Shown piece by piece: positions 37,498 to 46,234 of a DNA stretch of 64,000 nucleotides. Numbering within the stretch: position 1 is the first letter of the stretch; every line of letters begins with the position of its first letter. A program made the translations under genes and the position numbers. This stretch comes from Agromyces sp. 3263 (GTDB taxonomy: Bacteria > Actinomycetota > Actinomycetes > Actinomycetales > Microbacteriaceae): the NCBI RefSeq assembly GCF_031456545.1, contig NZ_JAVDUV010000001.1:2790001-2854000 (forward strand), read 5' to 3'. The notes beneath the pieces were generated by a model, which searched no databases, was not told the origin of the DNA, and was given only the letters and a program-made list of their open reading frames with translations.

Positions 37498-37806
37498 TCA
37501 GTCGCCGTCGCCGAGGGTGACCGGAAGACCGGCCCGATACCACCCGACGATCCCGCCCGTGACGTTGACCGCGTCGAAGCCCTCGGACTCGAGGTACTGC
37601 GTGGCCTGGGCGCTCCGCCCACCGACGTGGCACAGCACGTAGACCGTACGGTCGCGCGGCACCTCGGCCAGGCGCTCGACGAGCGAGCCGAGCGGGATGT
37701 GCTGAGCGCCCTCGATGCGTGCCTGGGCCACCTCGTCGGGTTCGCGCACGTCGAGGATGTGGGCGCCGTCGACGGTGTGCACCTCGGCGGGGGTGGCGGT
37801 CTGCAT
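37498..37806 (-). CDS. rhodanese-like domain protein
   Basis: A 102-residue single-domain rhodanese: HILDVREPDEVAQARI and the active-site loop CHVGGRSAQAT, where Cys carries the persulfide. It is probably a sulfur carrier in the cytosol; substrate unknown. Convergent with ald, 9 bases away. Confidence 0.92.
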   Translation of the reverse strand: MQTATPAEVHTVDGAHILDVREPDEVAQARIEGAQHIPLGSLVERLAEVPRDRTVYVLCHVGGRSAQATQYLESEGFDAVNVTGGIVGWYRAGLPVTLGDGD

Positions 37807-37946
37807 CGGGACTCCTTCGAGCGGCTGCGCCAGTGGTGATGGTTCGTCGGGGCATCCGGATACAGCAGCATACCCGCGGCCGTCGAAACGCCGCCGGAAC
37901 CGGCGATGCTCCCTCGATTCCGCGCGAAGCCACGTATGGTGTCCGT

Positions 37947-40900
37947 GTGTGGCGGCTCGATCGGAACCATGACGAGGAGGACCTCCTCGGGTCCGAGCCG
38001 GACGCCGCCGCGGAGCAACTCACCCCGGATCCCATGCGACACGACACCACGAGCCCTGACGGAGTCAGCCTCGGCGACCCCGAACTCGTCGCCGGCAATG
38101 TGGCTGAGCCCGCGTGGCACCGCTGGCGCGGCGAGCTCGCGGAGGTCGGCGGCCGGTCGCCGCTCGTGCGCTTCGTCGACACGCCGCGCACCCGCATCGA
38201 GCTGTCCACGACGCATCCCGGCGGTCTGCCGCAGTTCATCACGGGCAAGTCGACCCTGCTCTCGAGCCTCATCCGCGACGAGCTCGCGCTGCGCAACGCG
38301 CGGCTCGCGGCCGCGGAGATCACCCAGAAGGGCATCGAGCTCCGGTCGGTGCGCGGCATCGAGTCGGTGCACCTGGCGATCGGACTCGCGTCGTGGCGCA
38401 ATGCCGGCGAGGAGTACCTCGCGCCGGTGCTGCTCCGCCCCCTCGCCATCCGCCGCTACGGCCGCGACTTCGAGCTGAAGCTCAAGGGCCAGCCGTTCCT
38501 CAACCCGGCCCTCGCCCGCGAGCTGCGCGAGCAGTTCCAGATCACCCTCGATGCCGACGCCTTCGTCGCCCTCGCGATCACCAACGGGGTCTTCAAGCCC
38601 CAGCCCGTGATCGACCGCCTGCGCGGTCTCACCTCGCACCTGCCGTGGTTCCACGTCGCGCCGCGACTCGTCGTGTCGGCCTTCGCGGAGGTCGGTCCGG
38701 CCATGGCCGATGACGTGCGACGGCTCGACCACCCCGTCATCGACGCCATCGCCGGCAACGCCGCCGCGCGCGCGTCGCTCGCCGAGCAGGGGGAGCGTGC
38801 CCGGCCGGTGCCGCAGGACCAGCGTCCGCCGTCGACCGACCACCTCCTCCTCGATGCGGATCCCGAGCAGGAGCAGGTCGTCGCCGAGATCGAGTCGGGA
38901 TCGTCGCTCGTCGTCAAGACGCTGCCGGGCACCGGCGGCACCCAGACGATCGTCAACGCGATCGGGGCACTCGTCGCCAAGGACAAGCGCGTCCTCGTGG
39001 TCGGCGCCCGCCGTGCGAGCCTCGACGGCATCGCGCATCGCCTCGGCCAGGTGGGGCTCGGCGGTGCCGCCGTGTCCACGGGCAGCCTCCGCCGCGACCT
39101 CATCCAGGCGATCTCCCGAAACGAGAAGGCCGAGCAGCCGCGGGTCGCCGACGTCGACGACGCGCTCGTGCGACTCCGCAAGGTGCTGCTCGACTACCGA
39201 ACGGCCCTCACTCGCGACGACCCAGAGCTGCACGTGTCCGTGCTGGACGCACTCGGCGAGCTCGCCAAGCTGGCGCAGCTGCGGGAGGCCCCGTCCACGA
39301 CCGCCCGGCTCGACCACGCCTCGCTCGTGGCGCTCGCCACCGGCCGCGACCGTGTCGCGCACGACCTCGCCCGGGCCGCCGAGCTCGGCGAGTTCCGGTA
39401 CGGTCCCGGCGACTCGCCCTGGTACGGCGCATCGTTCACCTCCTCCGACGAGGCGACGCACGCCCATGACCTCGCGAAGCGGCTGGACGCCACGGAGCTG
39501 CCCCGCCTGCTCGAGCGCGGTCGCGCCCTGATCGCGCAGACCCGCCTGCGCCCCTTCGAGTCGGTCGCCGAGCTGGGGGTCTTCCTGCGCCTGCTCCTGG
39601 ACGTGCGCGAGACGCTCGACCGGTTCCAGCCGTCGGTGTTCGACCGTCCCCTCGGCGAGCTCATCGCCGCCACGTCGGCCCGCCGCGATTCGCCCGGGAT
39701 GTCGGGTCCCAACCGCCGGCGCCTCCGCCGCCTGGCCCTCGAGTACGTGCGCCCCGGCGTGCACGTCACCGACCTCAACGGCGCGCTCCGCGGCATCCAG
39801 CAGCAACGCACGCTGTGGCAGCGCTACTCGGAGGCGGGCGCGATCCCCAGCGTGCCGGTCGGCATCGACGACGTGCATGTCGCCTTCCGCACGGTCGCGA
39901 CCGACCTCGCCGCGCTCGATGCACCGCTCGGCGTGGTGGGCACCCCCCGGCAGCTCGCCGCGAGGCCCGTGCGCGAGCTGGTGTCCGACCTGCGCGGACT
40001 CGCCGCGGAGTCGGAGGTGCTCACGAACCTGCAGGAGCGCACGGCGGTGCTCTCGCGCCTGCGCGACCTCGGCCTCGACCCGCTGCTCCTCGACCTCGCC
40101 AAGCGCCACGTGCCCGAGCGCGCCGTCGCCGCCGAGCTCGAGCTCGCCTGGTGGCAGTCGGTGCTCGAATCGATGCTCGCCGGCGACAAGGCGCTCCTCG
40201 GCGCGAACACGACGGTGCTCGACCGCCTCGAGGGCGACTTCCGCCTCGTCGACGAGGCGCATGCGTCGGCAGCGGGTCCGCAGCTGGCCTGGCACCTCGC
40301 CGAGAACTGGAAGGTCGCGCTCGTCGATCATCCCGACGAGGCCCAGCGCCTGAAGCGGATGCTCCGGGGCGACCGGGTGCGCCCCGCCGCGCTGCACGCC
40401 GAGACGCCGCACCTGTTCCGCACGCTCGCGCCGATCTGGCTCGCGTCGCCGTACGAGGTGGCCGAGATCGACGACGCGATCCCCTTCGACACCGTGGTGC
40501 TCGTGGACGCAGGCTCGACGACCATCGCGGAGAACCTCGGCGCGATCCGGCGCGCACGGCAGGTCGTCGCGTTCGGCGACCCGGTGACGCAGACCCCGAC
40601 CGTGTTCGAGACCGGGATCGACGACTCGGAGCCCGGCTCGGCCGGCACCACCGAGCACGGCGTCGATGCGCTGCACGCGGATTCGGCGCTGGCCCGGCTC
40701 GGCGAGCTGCTGCCCACGCTCACCCTCACGAGGAGCTACCGCGCCGGCGGCGAGGACCTCGCCGAGCTGGTGAACCGCCGGTTCTACGCCGGACGCATCC
40801 AGTCCCTGCCCTGGGCGGGCAGCTTCCTCGGCCACGGCAGCCTCGGGCTGCACTACGTCCGCGGCAACGGGCTCCCCGACGCCGTCACGGGCACGGTCGA

Positions 40901-41708
40901 GAGCATCGACTCCGAGGTCGCGAAGGTCGTAGAGCTCGTGATGGACCACGCCGTGAAGCGGCCCCGCGAGTCGCTCATGGTCATCACCGCGAGCGCCCGG
41001 CATGCGGCGCGGGTGCACCAGTCGGTGCTCGCGGCGTTCGCCAAGCGCACCGACCTGTCGGACTTCATCCTCAAGGACCGCGCCGAGCCGTTCACGGTGC
41101 TCACCCTCGAGCAGGCCGTGGCGCAGAGCCGGGATCGCGTCATCTTCTCCGTCGGCTACGGCCGCACGCCGCACGGCCGGCTGCTGTCGAACTTCGGCTC
41201 GCTCGGCGAACCCGGCGGTGACCGGCTGCTCGCCGTCGCCATGACGCGGGCCCGGCGTTCGATGGACCTCGTCTCCGCGTTCCGGCCCGAGGACATCGAC
41301 GAGGAGCGCCAGTCCCACGGCGTGCTCGCGCTCGCCAACATCCTCAGCCAGACCGAGGAGCGCGCCGCGGCCGACGTCGACGGCGAGGCCGGGGCGTCGA
41401 TGCTGGCCGACCTGGCCGCACGGCTGGCGCGGCGCGGCATCCGGGTCAGCGTCGACCATCGCGGCCGGCTCCCGCTTGCGGCCGCCCACGCCGGCAAGGC
41501 GGTGGTGGTCGAGACCGACGAGGCGTTCGAGGGGCTCAGCCTGCGGGAGTCCCTGCGACTTCGGCCCGACGTGCTGCGACGGCTCGGCTGGCACTACCTG
41601 CGGGTGCACAGCTTCGAGCTCTTCGGCAACCCCGAGGCGGTCGCCACCCGTGTCGCCACGGTCCTCGGCAAGCCCGAGGCGAATCCCGCGGATGCCGCGG
41701 CGAGCTGA
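37947..41708 (+). CDS. DUF4011 / SF1-helicase-like / REase-fold protein with degenerate ATPase motifs
   Basis: A 1253-residue protein. Residues about 80-230 match DUF4011, about 300-1130 an SF1 (UvrD/RecD-like) helicase pair and about 1150-1251 a small REase/Vsr-fold domain (MTES_1575-like; LRESLRLRPDVLRRLGWHYLRVHSFELFG). Walker A reads LPGTGGTQT (residue about 326): the lysine is Gly. Walker B reads VVLVDAGST (about 850) where active helicases have VDEAS. Motif III FGDPVTQTPT is also altered, but motif VI VAMTRARRSMDL is kept. So DNA binding may remain without ATP hydrolysis. GTG 37947 follows TATGGT (37935-37940) by 6 bases, suggesting a leaderless start; ATG 38034 is the alternative. Confidence 0.85.
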   Translation: MWRLDRNHDEEDLLGSEPDAAAEQLTPDPMRHDTTSPDGVSLGDPELVAGNVAEPAWHRWRGELAEVGGRSPLVRFVDTPRTRIELSTTHPGGLPQFITGKSTLLSSLIRDELALRNARLAAAEITQKGIELRSVRGIESVHLAIGLASWRNAGEEYLAPVLLRPLAIRRYGRDFELKLKGQPFLNPALARELREQFQITLDADAFVALAITNGVFKPQPVIDRLRGLTSHLPWFHVAPRLVVSAFAEVGPAMADDVRRLDHPVIDAIAGNAAARASLAEQGERARPVPQDQRPPSTDHLLLDADPEQEQVVAEIESGSSLVVKTLPGTGGTQTIVNAIGALVAKDKRVLVVGARRASLDGIAHRLGQVGLGGAAVSTGSLRRDLIQAISRNEKAEQPRVADVDDALVRLRKVLLDYRTALTRDDPELHVSVLDALGELAKLAQLREAPSTTARLDHASLVALATGRDRVAHDLARAAELGEFRYGPGDSPWYGASFTSSDEATHAHDLAKRLDATELPRLLERGRALIAQTRLRPFESVAELGVFLRLLLDVRETLDRFQPSVFDRPLGELIAATSARRDSPGMSGPNRRRLRRLALEYVRPGVHVTDLNGALRGIQQQRTLWQRYSEAGAIPSVPVGIDDVHVAFRTVATDLAALDAPLGVVGTPRQLAARPVRELVSDLRGLAAESEVLTNLQERTAVLSRLRDLGLDPLLLDLAKRHVPERAVAAELELAWWQSVLESMLAGDKALLGANTTVLDRLEGDFRLVDEAHASAAGPQLAWHLAENWKVALVDHPDEAQRLKRMLRGDRVRPAALHAETPHLFRTLAPIWLASPYEVAEIDDAIPFDTVVLVDAGSTTIAENLGAIRRARQVVAFGDPVTQTPTVFETGIDDSEPGSAGTTEHGVDALHADSALARLGELLPTLTLTRSYRAGGEDLAELVNRRFYAGRIQSLPWAGSFLGHGSLGLHYVRGNGLPDAVTGTVESIDSEVAKVVELVMDHAVKRPRESLMVITASARHAARVHQSVLAAFAKRTDLSDFILKDRAEPFTVLTLEQAVAQSRDRVIFSVGYGRTPHGRLLSNFGSLGEPGGDRLLAVAMTRARRSMDLVSAFRPEDIDEERQSHGVLALANILSQTEERAAADVDGEAGASMLADLAARLARRGIRVSVDHRGRLPLAAAHAGKAVVVETDEAFEGLSLRESLRLRPDVLRRLGWHYLRVHSFELFGNPEAVATRVATVLGKPEANPADAAAS

Positions 41709-41917
41709 TGCCCGACGAGCCCAGGCAGCGCGTGGAGCGTGCCGGCGGGAAGTCCCGTCGCGCGCGGCTCACCCCGGCGCCCGGTTCGGATCCGTCGCCC
41801 GAGCAGCCGGCGACGACGGGGACGGAAGCCGGCGAGCCGCCCGAGCCCACGTCGCAACGCGGTCGCCCCAGCCCTGACGACGAGCGCATCACGCGGGAGC
41901 GCCCGCCGCACTGGTGA
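41708..41917 (+). CDS. hypothetical 69-residue protein coupled to the helicase-like gene
   Basis: A small, highly charged, Pro-rich protein (MPDEPRQRVERAGGKSRR... ending DDERITRERPPHW) whose ATG overlaps the TGA of the helicase-like gene by one base. No family recognised and no hydrophobic core; probably disordered. Translation coupling suggests it works with the large protein. Confidence 0.65.
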   Translation: MPDEPRQRVERAGGKSRRARLTPAPGSDPSPEQPATTGTEAGEPPEPTSQRGRPSPDDERITRERPPHW

Positions 41918-41980: not shown

Positions 41981-42448
41981 CTACTCGGCGTGCTTGCCGG
42001 AGGTGGTCGCGGCGACCGATTCCGTGCCGTGCGCGGGCGCGACGCGCTCGGCCAGCAGGTCGCGGATCTCGGAGAGCAGCGTCACCTCGTTCTCGGGCTC
42101 GTCGGCATCGGGAACTCCGGCCTGGCGCTTGGCGGTGGTGCGATCCTTCAGGTGGTTCATCGGCATCACGAAGACGAAGTACACGACCGCCGCGACGATG
42201 ACGAAGGTCAGGATCGATCCGAGCACCGCGCCGAACTTCACGTCGGCCGTGCCGCCGTCGAGTGTCGGGATCGACCAGACCAGGGCGGTGTCGAGGCTGT
42301 CGGCGCGGAAGATCGCGCCGATCAGCGGGTTGATGAGGTTGTTCACGATCGAGTTCACCACGGCGGTGAACGCCGCGCCGATGACGACGGCGACCGCCAG
42401 CTCGATCACGTTCCCGCGAAGGATGAACTCCTTGAACCCCTTGAGCAC
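41981..42448 (-). CDS. mscL: large-conductance mechanosensitive channel
   Basis: A 155-residue pentameric channel subunit: LKGFKEFILRGNVIELAVAV at the start, VIGAAFTAVVNSIVNN in TM1 and a second TM (FVIVAAVVYFVFVMPMNHL). It opens under hypo-osmotic shock. GTG 42448 follows GAGGAGG. The cytoplasmic tail (about 108-155) is longer than in E. coli MscL. Confidence 0.95.
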   Translation of the reverse strand: MLKGFKEFILRGNVIELAVAVVIGAAFTAVVNSIVNNLINPLIGAIFRADSLDTALVWSIPTLDGGTADVKFGAVLGSILTFVIVAAVVYFVFVMPMNHLKDRTTAKRQAGVPDADEPENEVTLLSEIRDLLAERVAPAHGTESVAATTSGKHAE

Positions 42449-42483
42449 GCCGCCTCCTCGATCTGCGCCCCGCGCGGGCACGC

Positions 42484-42873
42484 CTAGGCAACGCTAGCCG
42501 ACGAGCCCGATCCGGTCGATTTCGCTCCGCCCGACGATCCCGAGGAGCCGGTCGAGCCCGACGACCCCGACGAGCCGGCCGACGATCCGCCGGATCCCGA
42601 GCCGGAGGACCCGGATCCAGACGACCCGGACCCCGACGACCCCCCGCCCGACCCTGATGCGCCCGACGGGGCATCCGCCTTGCCCTTCGCGCCATCGGCG
42701 CGGGAATCGGTGCGGTAGAAGCCCGAGCCGTTGAACGTCACGCCGATGGTGTTGAAGAGCTTGCGCAGCCGGCCGCCGCACACCTCGCACACGGTGAGCG
42801 CGTCGTCGGTGAACGCCTGGTGGATGTCGAACGCGTTGTCGCACTCGGTGCAGCGGTAGGAATACGTGGGCAT
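42484..42873 (-). CDS. FmdB-family zinc ribbon protein with Gly/Ser tail
   Basis: A 129-residue protein with an FmdB/CxxC_CXXC_SSSS domain (1-45): MPTYSYRCTECDNAFDIHQ and CEVCGGRLRKLFN, four zinc Cys. The remaining 70 residues are an almost pure Gly/Ser repeat tail. Family function unknown. It lies between mscL and the formyltetrahydrofolate cyclo-ligase gene on the same strand and may be in that operon. Confidence 0.9.
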   Translation of the reverse strand: MPTYSYRCTECDNAFDIHQAFTDDALTVCEVCGGRLRKLFNTIGVTFNGSGFYRTDSRADGAKGKADAPSGASGSGGGSSGSGSSGSGSSGSGSGGSSAGSSGSSGSTGSSGSSGGAKSTGSGSSASVA

Positions 42874-45172: not shown

Positions 45173-46234
45173 ATGGACGTGATCGGCGGTGGGGTGCTCG
45201 TGGCGGCGGCCGCGGCGCTCTGGATCGCGTACCTGCTGCCGAGCTGGCTCCGGCGCCGTCAGTACCTCGACACCGAGCGCAACGCCGTGCGCCTGCAGCA
45301 GACGCTCCGCATCCTCGCCGAGACGAGCGAGACCCCCGAAGAGGTGCGCGTCGAGGCGACCGCCCGCGAGGTCGCCGTCCAGCAGCGCATCCTGCACGAG
45401 CACGAGGAGACCGCCCGGCTCGAGGCGGAGGCTGCCGAGCTCCTCGCGATCGCCGAACGCCTCGCGGCCGAGGACGCCGCTGCCACCGCTCGCGAGCTCG
45501 CGGCTGCGGCGCAGGCGACGGCCACCGAGCCGATCACGGTCGTGACGGCGCCCGCTGCGACCTCGTCCACCGTGACGGATCGGCCGTCGGGCGCGACGCC
45601 GGCACCGGTGACGGCGACGGATGCCGCGCGCCGGCGCCGCGCGCTTCGCCGGCGTCGCGGACTCAGCTCGCTCTTCCTCCTCGTCTCGCTGCTCACCGTC
45701 GTCCTCGGCCTCGTCGCCACGGCCTTCGGCGCCACGTTCCTCATCGCGGGCGTCGGAGCGGGAGGCGTGATCGTCGCGCTCGGCCTGCTCGCCCGCCTGG
45801 CGCGCGTCCGCGTGCCCTCCGTCGTCGCCGCTGCCCCGCTGGCGGCACCCGAGACCGTGCCGTTCGAGCCCATCGAGCTCCCCGAGCCCGAGGCGGAAGA
45901 CCACGGCTGGGTACCGCGGCCGCTGCCCAAGCCGCTGCACCTCTCACGCGGCACGATCGCGGCGATGGCGATGGCCTCGGTCGAGGCGGCCGCCGAACTC
46001 AAGCGCGCCGAGCTGGACGCCGAGGTCGCCCGCCGGGTCGAGCGACTGGAGCCGGCCGTGCCGTCGATCGCCCCCGCGGCCGTGGCATCCGCCGGGCCGG
46101 CCGAGCCCGCGGCATCCGCTCGCGAACGGCTCGAACCCGCCAGCCCCTACGCCCGCATGGGCATCATCGACGACGCGGCGCCCGGCTTCGACGACCTCGA
46201 TGCCGTACTGCGACGACGCCGCCAGGTCGGCTGA
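45173..46234 (+). CDS. conserved two-region membrane protein, unknown
   Basis: A 353-residue protein with an N-terminal helix (about 5-25) plus basic RRRQYLDTER, a coiled acidic middle (about 60-125), a second helix pair (about 160-205; FLLVSLLTVVLGLVATAFGATFLIAGVGAGGVIVALGLL) and a long C-terminal region with GWVPRPLPKP. No enzyme motif. Actinobacterial genes next to galU-GNAT carry this family. TAGCGT (45161-45166) sits 6 bases upstream of the ATG, so it is likely leaderless. Confidence 0.75.
   Translation: MDVIGGGVLVAAAAALWIAYLLPSWLRRRQYLDTERNAVRLQQTLRILAETSETPEEVRVEATAREVAVQQRILHEHEETARLEAEAAELLAIAERLAAEDAAATARELAAAAQATATEPITVVTAPAATSSTVTDRPSGATPAPVTATDAARRRRALRRRRGLSSLFLLVSLLTVVLGLVATAFGATFLIAGVGAGGVIVALGLLARLARVRVPSVVAAAPLAAPETVPFEPIELPEPEAEDHGWVPRPLPKPLHLSRGTIAAMAMASVEAAAELKRAELDAEVARRVERLEPAVPSIAPAAVASAGPAEPAASARERLEPASPYARMGIIDDAAPGFDDLDAVLRRRRQVG

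Follow-up and report, generated by a model that had tools for sequence, protein, structure and literature searches.

The locus and its two genes

The subject of this analysis is a pair of coupled genes in Agromyces sp. 3263, lying in a stretch of 64,000 nucleotides (contig NZ_JAVDUV010000001.1, positions 2,790,001-2,854,000). This whole stretch is called the window, and coordinates are counted from its first letter. The large gene (37947..41708, +) codes for a pseudo-helicase/pseudo-nuclease protein of 1253 amino acids, and the small one (41708..41917, +) for a protein of 69 amino acids; the start of the small gene and the stop of the large one overlap in TGATG. The open frame of the large gene spans 37719-41708 (+), with the stop codon at 41706-41708. 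A GTG at 37947 is its likely, not its proven, start, because the NCBI homologue P0001 has 1252 amino acids and matches at 100% coverage. An original prediction, made from the letters alone, had described a frame of 1253 codons that is intact and no decaying pseudogene. In support of this, the ratio of nonsynonymous to synonymous substitution rates (dN/dS) was 0.02-0.24 in eight Agromyces pairs over residues 60-1245 (Nei-Gojobori, codon bias not modelled). Judged by these substitutions, selection is purifying, and a pseudogene was rejected.

Helicase motifs are numbered here, and their expected residues named, after textbook convention. Residues 124-191 (38316..38519, +) form a DUF4011-like N-terminal region (Pfam PF13195; 20.3 bits, below the cut-off of 22.2, which the orthologues at loci L062, L082, L083 and L101 pass with 23.2-38.6 bits). 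The former Walker A, LPGTGGTQT, occupies residues 326-334 (38922..38948, +), and G331 stands in the Lys column, just as the original prediction had it. Walker B had been described as ruined by loss of its Glu, with the Asp kept. The ruin stands, but the assignment does not: in the alignment the DE column falls on V853-D854, so that Asp has become Val and Glu has become Asp. These residues belong to VVLVDAGST (residues 850-858), in which V853-D854-A855-G856 (40503..40514, +) takes the place of DEAS in intact orthologues. The Agromyces protein has neither the Walker A GK[S/T] nor the Walker B DE of a superfamily 1 (SF1) ATPase. Motif III, AFGDPVTQTP (40569..40598, +), has T881 in the Gln column and a Gln next to it, at 882, and the Glu of motif V is replaced by S1061 in its alignment column. 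The arginines of motif IV (R932) and motif VI (R1101 and R1103, in TRARR at 41244..41258, +) are retained, the latter as had been claimed.

A nuclease-like C-terminal domain had also been said to remain. It does so as a sub-threshold match to the MTES_1575/Vsr-like family at residues 1150-1240 (41394..41666, +; PF18741, 22.9 bits against 38.2), but its first Asp column holds P1176; E1189 and D1191 are retained. For the same family L082 and L083 score 71-76 bits, L101 passes and L062 fails at 32.2. None of DUF4011, AAA_11, AAA_12 and MTES_1575 reaches its Pfam cut-off in the Agromyces protein, whereas L082 and L083, two intact orthologues, pass for all four. Scans of Pfam, NCBIfam and PADLOC gave no family of its own name for the large protein, and a PDB sequence search with it found no match at E <= 1. 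An AlphaFold model of residues 54-1253, built from 65 rows, reached a predicted local distance difference test score (pLDDT) of 89.9 and a predicted template modelling score (pTM) of 0.79. The best fold relatives of the model are Upf1-like helicases, and the Upf1-like helicase core is found in it; the predicted fold is intact. There was no nuclease-domain match among the VIA-align rows listed, an absence that is uninformative.

The small protein belongs to no family in Pfam, NCBIfam or PADLOC. It ends in Pro-Pro-His-Trp (41903..41914, +), the close of a conserved tail motif, DDERITRERPPHW. Searched for as DNA, the codons of PPHW with a TAA or TGA stop directly behind them (TAG not covered) occur once in the Agromyces genome, at the small gene. 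We defined the tail as an acidic residue or Asn, 2-10 residues, and PPH[WYF] at the C-terminus. With three truncated loci (L069, L073, L116) set aside, 138 loci of the order (here always GTDB Actinomycetales) divided into 76 with the tail in a separate open reading frame (ORF), 54 with the tail fused to the large protein, six with none and two at a contig end. Two of the six come close, L063 with RPPHW and a longer ending and L074 with VPPHWS after masked bases. In further order loci the tail was present in 19/19 (13 separate, 6 fused). The same rule was met in only 2/4904 random windows, by which a chance small ORF was rejected, and the overlapping protein of the original prediction is real. 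Fusion occurs in several lineages (L062, L071, L079, L080, L083), and for this reason we regard the large and small products as functionally linked. Outside the order and family f38, the tail was found in 0/8 loci. In f38 the small protein (L192, L193, L194, L200) has another conserved stretch, LPDxTxDE..WGDD, ahead of its PPHW end, and these counterparts likewise have no family in Pfam or NCBIfam. Many members of the order, though not Agromyces, have a comparable DD..WG stretch.

Motif loss and distribution across the order

A homologue search scored 7994 candidates and found 2068 proteins, and motifs were checked in the 120 matches listed. Named members among these are Agromyces, Cryobacterium, Leifsonia and others, which we take to be Microbacteriaceae. 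All 120 have Gly for the Walker A Lys and Asp for the Walker B Glu, with Val (117) or Ile (3) for the Walker B Asp. Every one has Thr in the Gln column of motif III and Ser in the Glu column of motif V, with the arginines of motifs IV and VI always kept. The first nuclease Asp is lost throughout (A 96, S 10, P 6, T 6, Q 2); the nuclease Glu is retained in 119, with one gap. The motif loss, whose conservation across Microbacteriaceae had been proposed as a check, is thus shared by all the matches listed. It had been argued that intact homologues as the norm would refute the case; they are not the norm in this family, but intact orthologues do exist elsewhere in the order.

Walker Lys and DE are intact at the same genomic place in nine named genomes, namely two each of Knoellia and Phycicoccus, one each of Pedococcus, Luteipulveratus, Leekyejoonella and Flexivirga, and a metagenome-assembled genome of Dermatophilaceae. 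Alignment groups were made by hand (rows L034, L069, L073, L116, L175 and L182 belong to none), and the 13 rows of the intact group were picked for being intact. All 13 have K in the Walker Lys column and retain every residue examined, bar one exchange in motif V and one in motif VI. In family f18, which holds most intact members, 15 further loci were read, with Lys in 11 and without it in 4; L204 gave no match when further loci were read. In Micrococcaceae-type rows the Walker Lys is replaced by Gln in 64/65, and the residues that replace the Walker Lys and the Walker B Asp differ between families (G, Q, A, V, R).

Trees were built with FastTree and with a quick IQ-TREE search, the latter from 64 rows and 1164 columns after removal of the motif columns and subject to a long-branch warning. 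A mostly Lys-bearing clade of 16 order rows is sister to a Lys-less clade of 38. Six of the 16 lack the Lys: L214, L086 and L081 group together, and L215-L217 (K to A) sit deep among intact rows. Family f38 (K to R) falls outside the order, and the tree requires at least four changes of the Walker Lys. When all 44 Lys-less order rows were forced into one clade, the approximately unbiased test rejected the constraint (p-AU 1.6e-10), and with it a single origin of all these losses within the order. Without L215-L217 the same constraint was not rejected (p-AU 0.213), so that L214, L086 and L081 may belong with the main loss rather than represent a loss of their own. The trees thus suggest at least three separate losses, in the large clade, in L215-L217 and in f38. 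We infer losses rather than gains from the Lys of the outgroup and on general grounds. The rows L214-L217 have a changed Walker Lys and otherwise near-intact motifs, and are nested among intact orthologues; judged by their residues, they are early stages of the same loss. The five lowest-entropy segments of the ruined clade lie outside the Walker motifs (AHPxG-type, LLAGRxTxLS-type, TPHGR, RRRLRR-RPG and AELxxxWW), and several of them differ from a ProA-like outgroup.

The gene is a core gene of the order. It has a match in each of 60 relatives from 20 families, and a profile of 15 order members matched 394/396 order genomes (each at least 90% complete) and 107/107 genera at E <= 1e-30. The two without a match are assemblies of 170 and 580 contigs. 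Some matches may be paralogues, because position was checked for the fetched loci only. Reduced genomes of 0.8, 0.8 and 0.9 Mb have one match each; at these loci (L179-L181) the motifs are ruined and the tail ends in PPHF. At 1e-20, 40/197 genomes of a class sample match (16 from the order, 15 from family f38 and 9 from elsewhere), as do 11/100 of a phylum sample, the order's own members included. In genome G656 the gene matches in three pieces (L182, L185, L189), owing either to a frameshift or to a fault in the assembly. A single homologue was found in the Agromyces genome itself at E <= 0.001 and at 1e-10, which does not support the earlier suggestion of a decoy, and a decoy for an intact paralogue was rejected.

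Position supports orthology. Downstream, the large and small genes face the convergent mscL (41981..42481, -; Pfam MscL), conserved in much of the order, followed by the conserved neighbour fmdB, an FmdB-type zinc-ribbon gene (42484..42873, -; Pfam Zn_ribbon_8). Scored as present within the fetched flank, with order and orientation checked at part of the loci, one or both accompany 20/27 order loci, 75/80 named loci, L201-L203 (genomes of 0.9, 1.1 and 2.0 Mb) and 4/4 f38 loci. Neither was found in the flank of 5 loci of more distant relatives or of 3 long ProA/Hhe-like loci. Because of this common place by mscL-fmdB, we take intact and ruined members as positional orthologues. Locus counts are not independent, since some loci share one genome (L085 and L113 were judged to do so). 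On the other side, a single-domain rhodanese gene (37498-37806, -) lies between alanine dehydrogenase and the large gene. Beyond fmdB, a 353-aa ORF at 45173-46234 (+), 3' of a GNAT gene, is without a Pfam family at E 0.001.

A putative ATP-independent scaffold and its alternatives

Catalytic residues have been lost, yet the gene and its tiny partner are kept almost order-wide, which suggests a housekeeping job without ATP. A gene of about 3.8 kb that matches in 394/396 order genomes, even in strongly reduced ones, should have an important function. We therefore lean, by a modest degree of belief, towards a core ATP-independent scaffold that derives from a ProA/Hhe-like helicase-nuclease and works with its tail. 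An ancestral DUF4011-helicase-nuclease of this kind would have been domesticated before the order diversified, becoming a vertically inherited core gene, and would have acquired clade-specific surfaces and the PPH[W/Y/F]-ending tail, either in the same chain or on the coupled small protein. ATP hydrolysis would then have been lost in most lineages. The protein would now act without ATP as a rigid, Upf1-like clamp or scaffold for nucleic acid or nucleoprotein, and its tail would bring in a widely conserved partner. Within this explanation, computation supports the core status, the positional orthology, the replacement of ATPase residues in at least three separate lineages, purifying selection, the predicted fold and the linkage of the tail by fusion. 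In a bolder form, which we regard as rather doubtful though worth stating, the protein might be a possibly essential, unrecognised order-wide core factor, in which a defence-type helicase-nuclease has turned into an ATP-independent scaffold and the tail recruits a central nucleic-acid machine.

Several observations weigh against such a scaffold. The tail lies close behind the large gene in only 1/14 f38 loci (12 none, 1 contig end); in the four f38 loci with long flanks it was found further downstream, up to about 4 kb away, in 4/4. In an AlphaFold model of the natural fusion L080, the tail has a pLDDT of 53-57 and is not confidently docked. Every region shows a higher column entropy in the ruined clade than in the intact one, perhaps because of greater breadth or of weaker, relaxed constraint. 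In one pair dN/dS rises to 0.36 in the helical insert, and this gene alone was measured. Most Micrococcaceae-type rows retain the nuclease residues (Asp in 57/65, with Asn in 8, and Glu in 64/65), so that an enzymatic role is possible in these proteins. Finally, nucleic-acid binding and a partner of the tail are points that we infer.

Kinship to ProA, Hhe and the PADLOC candidate PDC-S37 would also fit a fixed innate anti-phage guard, which senses phage nucleic acid without ATP, signals via its tail and persists in every genome. Defence genes are expected to be patchily distributed, and their retention in genomes of 0.8-0.9 Mb would be unusual. The Agromyces-type gene is instead nearly universal, usually stands by housekeeping genes and persists in genomes of that size, whereas long ProA-like paralogues (open frames >= 1849 aa) are patchy and occur in 6/60 relatives. 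The proposal of a defence gene in the original prediction fares poorly for the same reasons, and we consider a guard unlikely.

The Micrococcaceae-type rows, together with the Brevibacterium and Sediminivirga rows that read GIDLA and AVE[T/S]DG at the nuclease site (the Brevibacterium-type Asp column is misplaced in the alignment and reads A, yet GIDLA is visible in the sequence), raise the alternative, improbable in our view, of an ATP-independent nuclease, in which the helicase part is a mere scaffold and the C-terminal domain still cuts. It has little to recommend it where the first Asp is gone, as in the Agromyces protein and all 120 matches listed, or where Asp and Glu are both lost, as in 5/5 cellulomonad-type rows. 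Just as improbable is an unusual binding of ATP or another nucleotide that would make the protein a nucleotide-responsive switch. The arginines of motifs IV and VI kept in all 120 matches listed speak for it; against it, other residues, which differ per family, stand in place of the Walker Lys and the Walker B Asp. Moreover, the motif IV and first motif VI arginines are lost in 5/5 cellulomonad-type rows, where the second motif VI Arg is retained, and in a mixed group of 16 they are kept in none and in one row, respectively. A relic decaying slowly under residual constraint, to which the drift of active-site residues between families and the broken gene of G656 might point, is very hard to reconcile with the near-universal distribution, the low dN/dS, the conserved tail and the persistence in strongly reduced genomes.

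If the bolder form is right, the PPH[W/Y/F] tail, in cis or on a coupled micro-protein, would be a new recruiting peptide comparable to the C-terminal peptide of SSB. PPHW may offer a short handle on the partner of the large protein. The locus may also show the domestication of an anti-phage-type gene, and provides a rare series at one place, from intact through single-Lys loss to full loss, of how a helicase becomes a pseudoenzyme.

Comparison with known systems

The likeness to Hhe-type proteins noted in the original prediction is real, albeit far below the cut-offs of NCBIfam. ProA (NF058533) aligns over the helicase half and the nuclease-like end (best stretch, profile positions 1086-1707, E 7e-94). 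The Agromyces protein scores 315.5 bits and does not reach the ProA cut-off of 1500; the model has 1903 positions against 1253 amino acids here, and the catalytic residues are replaced here. The intact orthologues L082 and L083, with 777 and 800.9 bits, are also below 1500. A 2167-aa frame at L091 (genome G041, contig C12) is above it, with 1731.6 bits. As L091 passes and long paralogues occur in some relatives, a ProA-type defence family and the core gene coexist in the order and behave differently.

Hhe (NF042953), a DUF4011 anti-phage protein, matches in three stretches (E 2e-42) with 144.8 bits against a cut-off of 2000, and ruined motifs and a coupled PPHW partner are features of the Agromyces locus. 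PDC-S37 matches at E 4e-100 with 334 bits, no cut-off being stated, over a best stretch of residues 666-1244. It is a candidate defence family only, and the distribution of the Agromyces-type gene is not defence-like. REase_MTES_1575 (PF18741) is the same C-terminal domain, of which Agromyces has a sub-threshold version with the first Asp replaced. Upf1-like SF1B helicases (IGHMBP2, Upf1, Senataxin, Dna2, Aquarius) share 11-18% sequence identity in the rows listed. Compared with them, the Agromyces protein has its Walker Lys and Walker B Asp replaced, and carries a large helical insert and a nuclease-like C-terminus.

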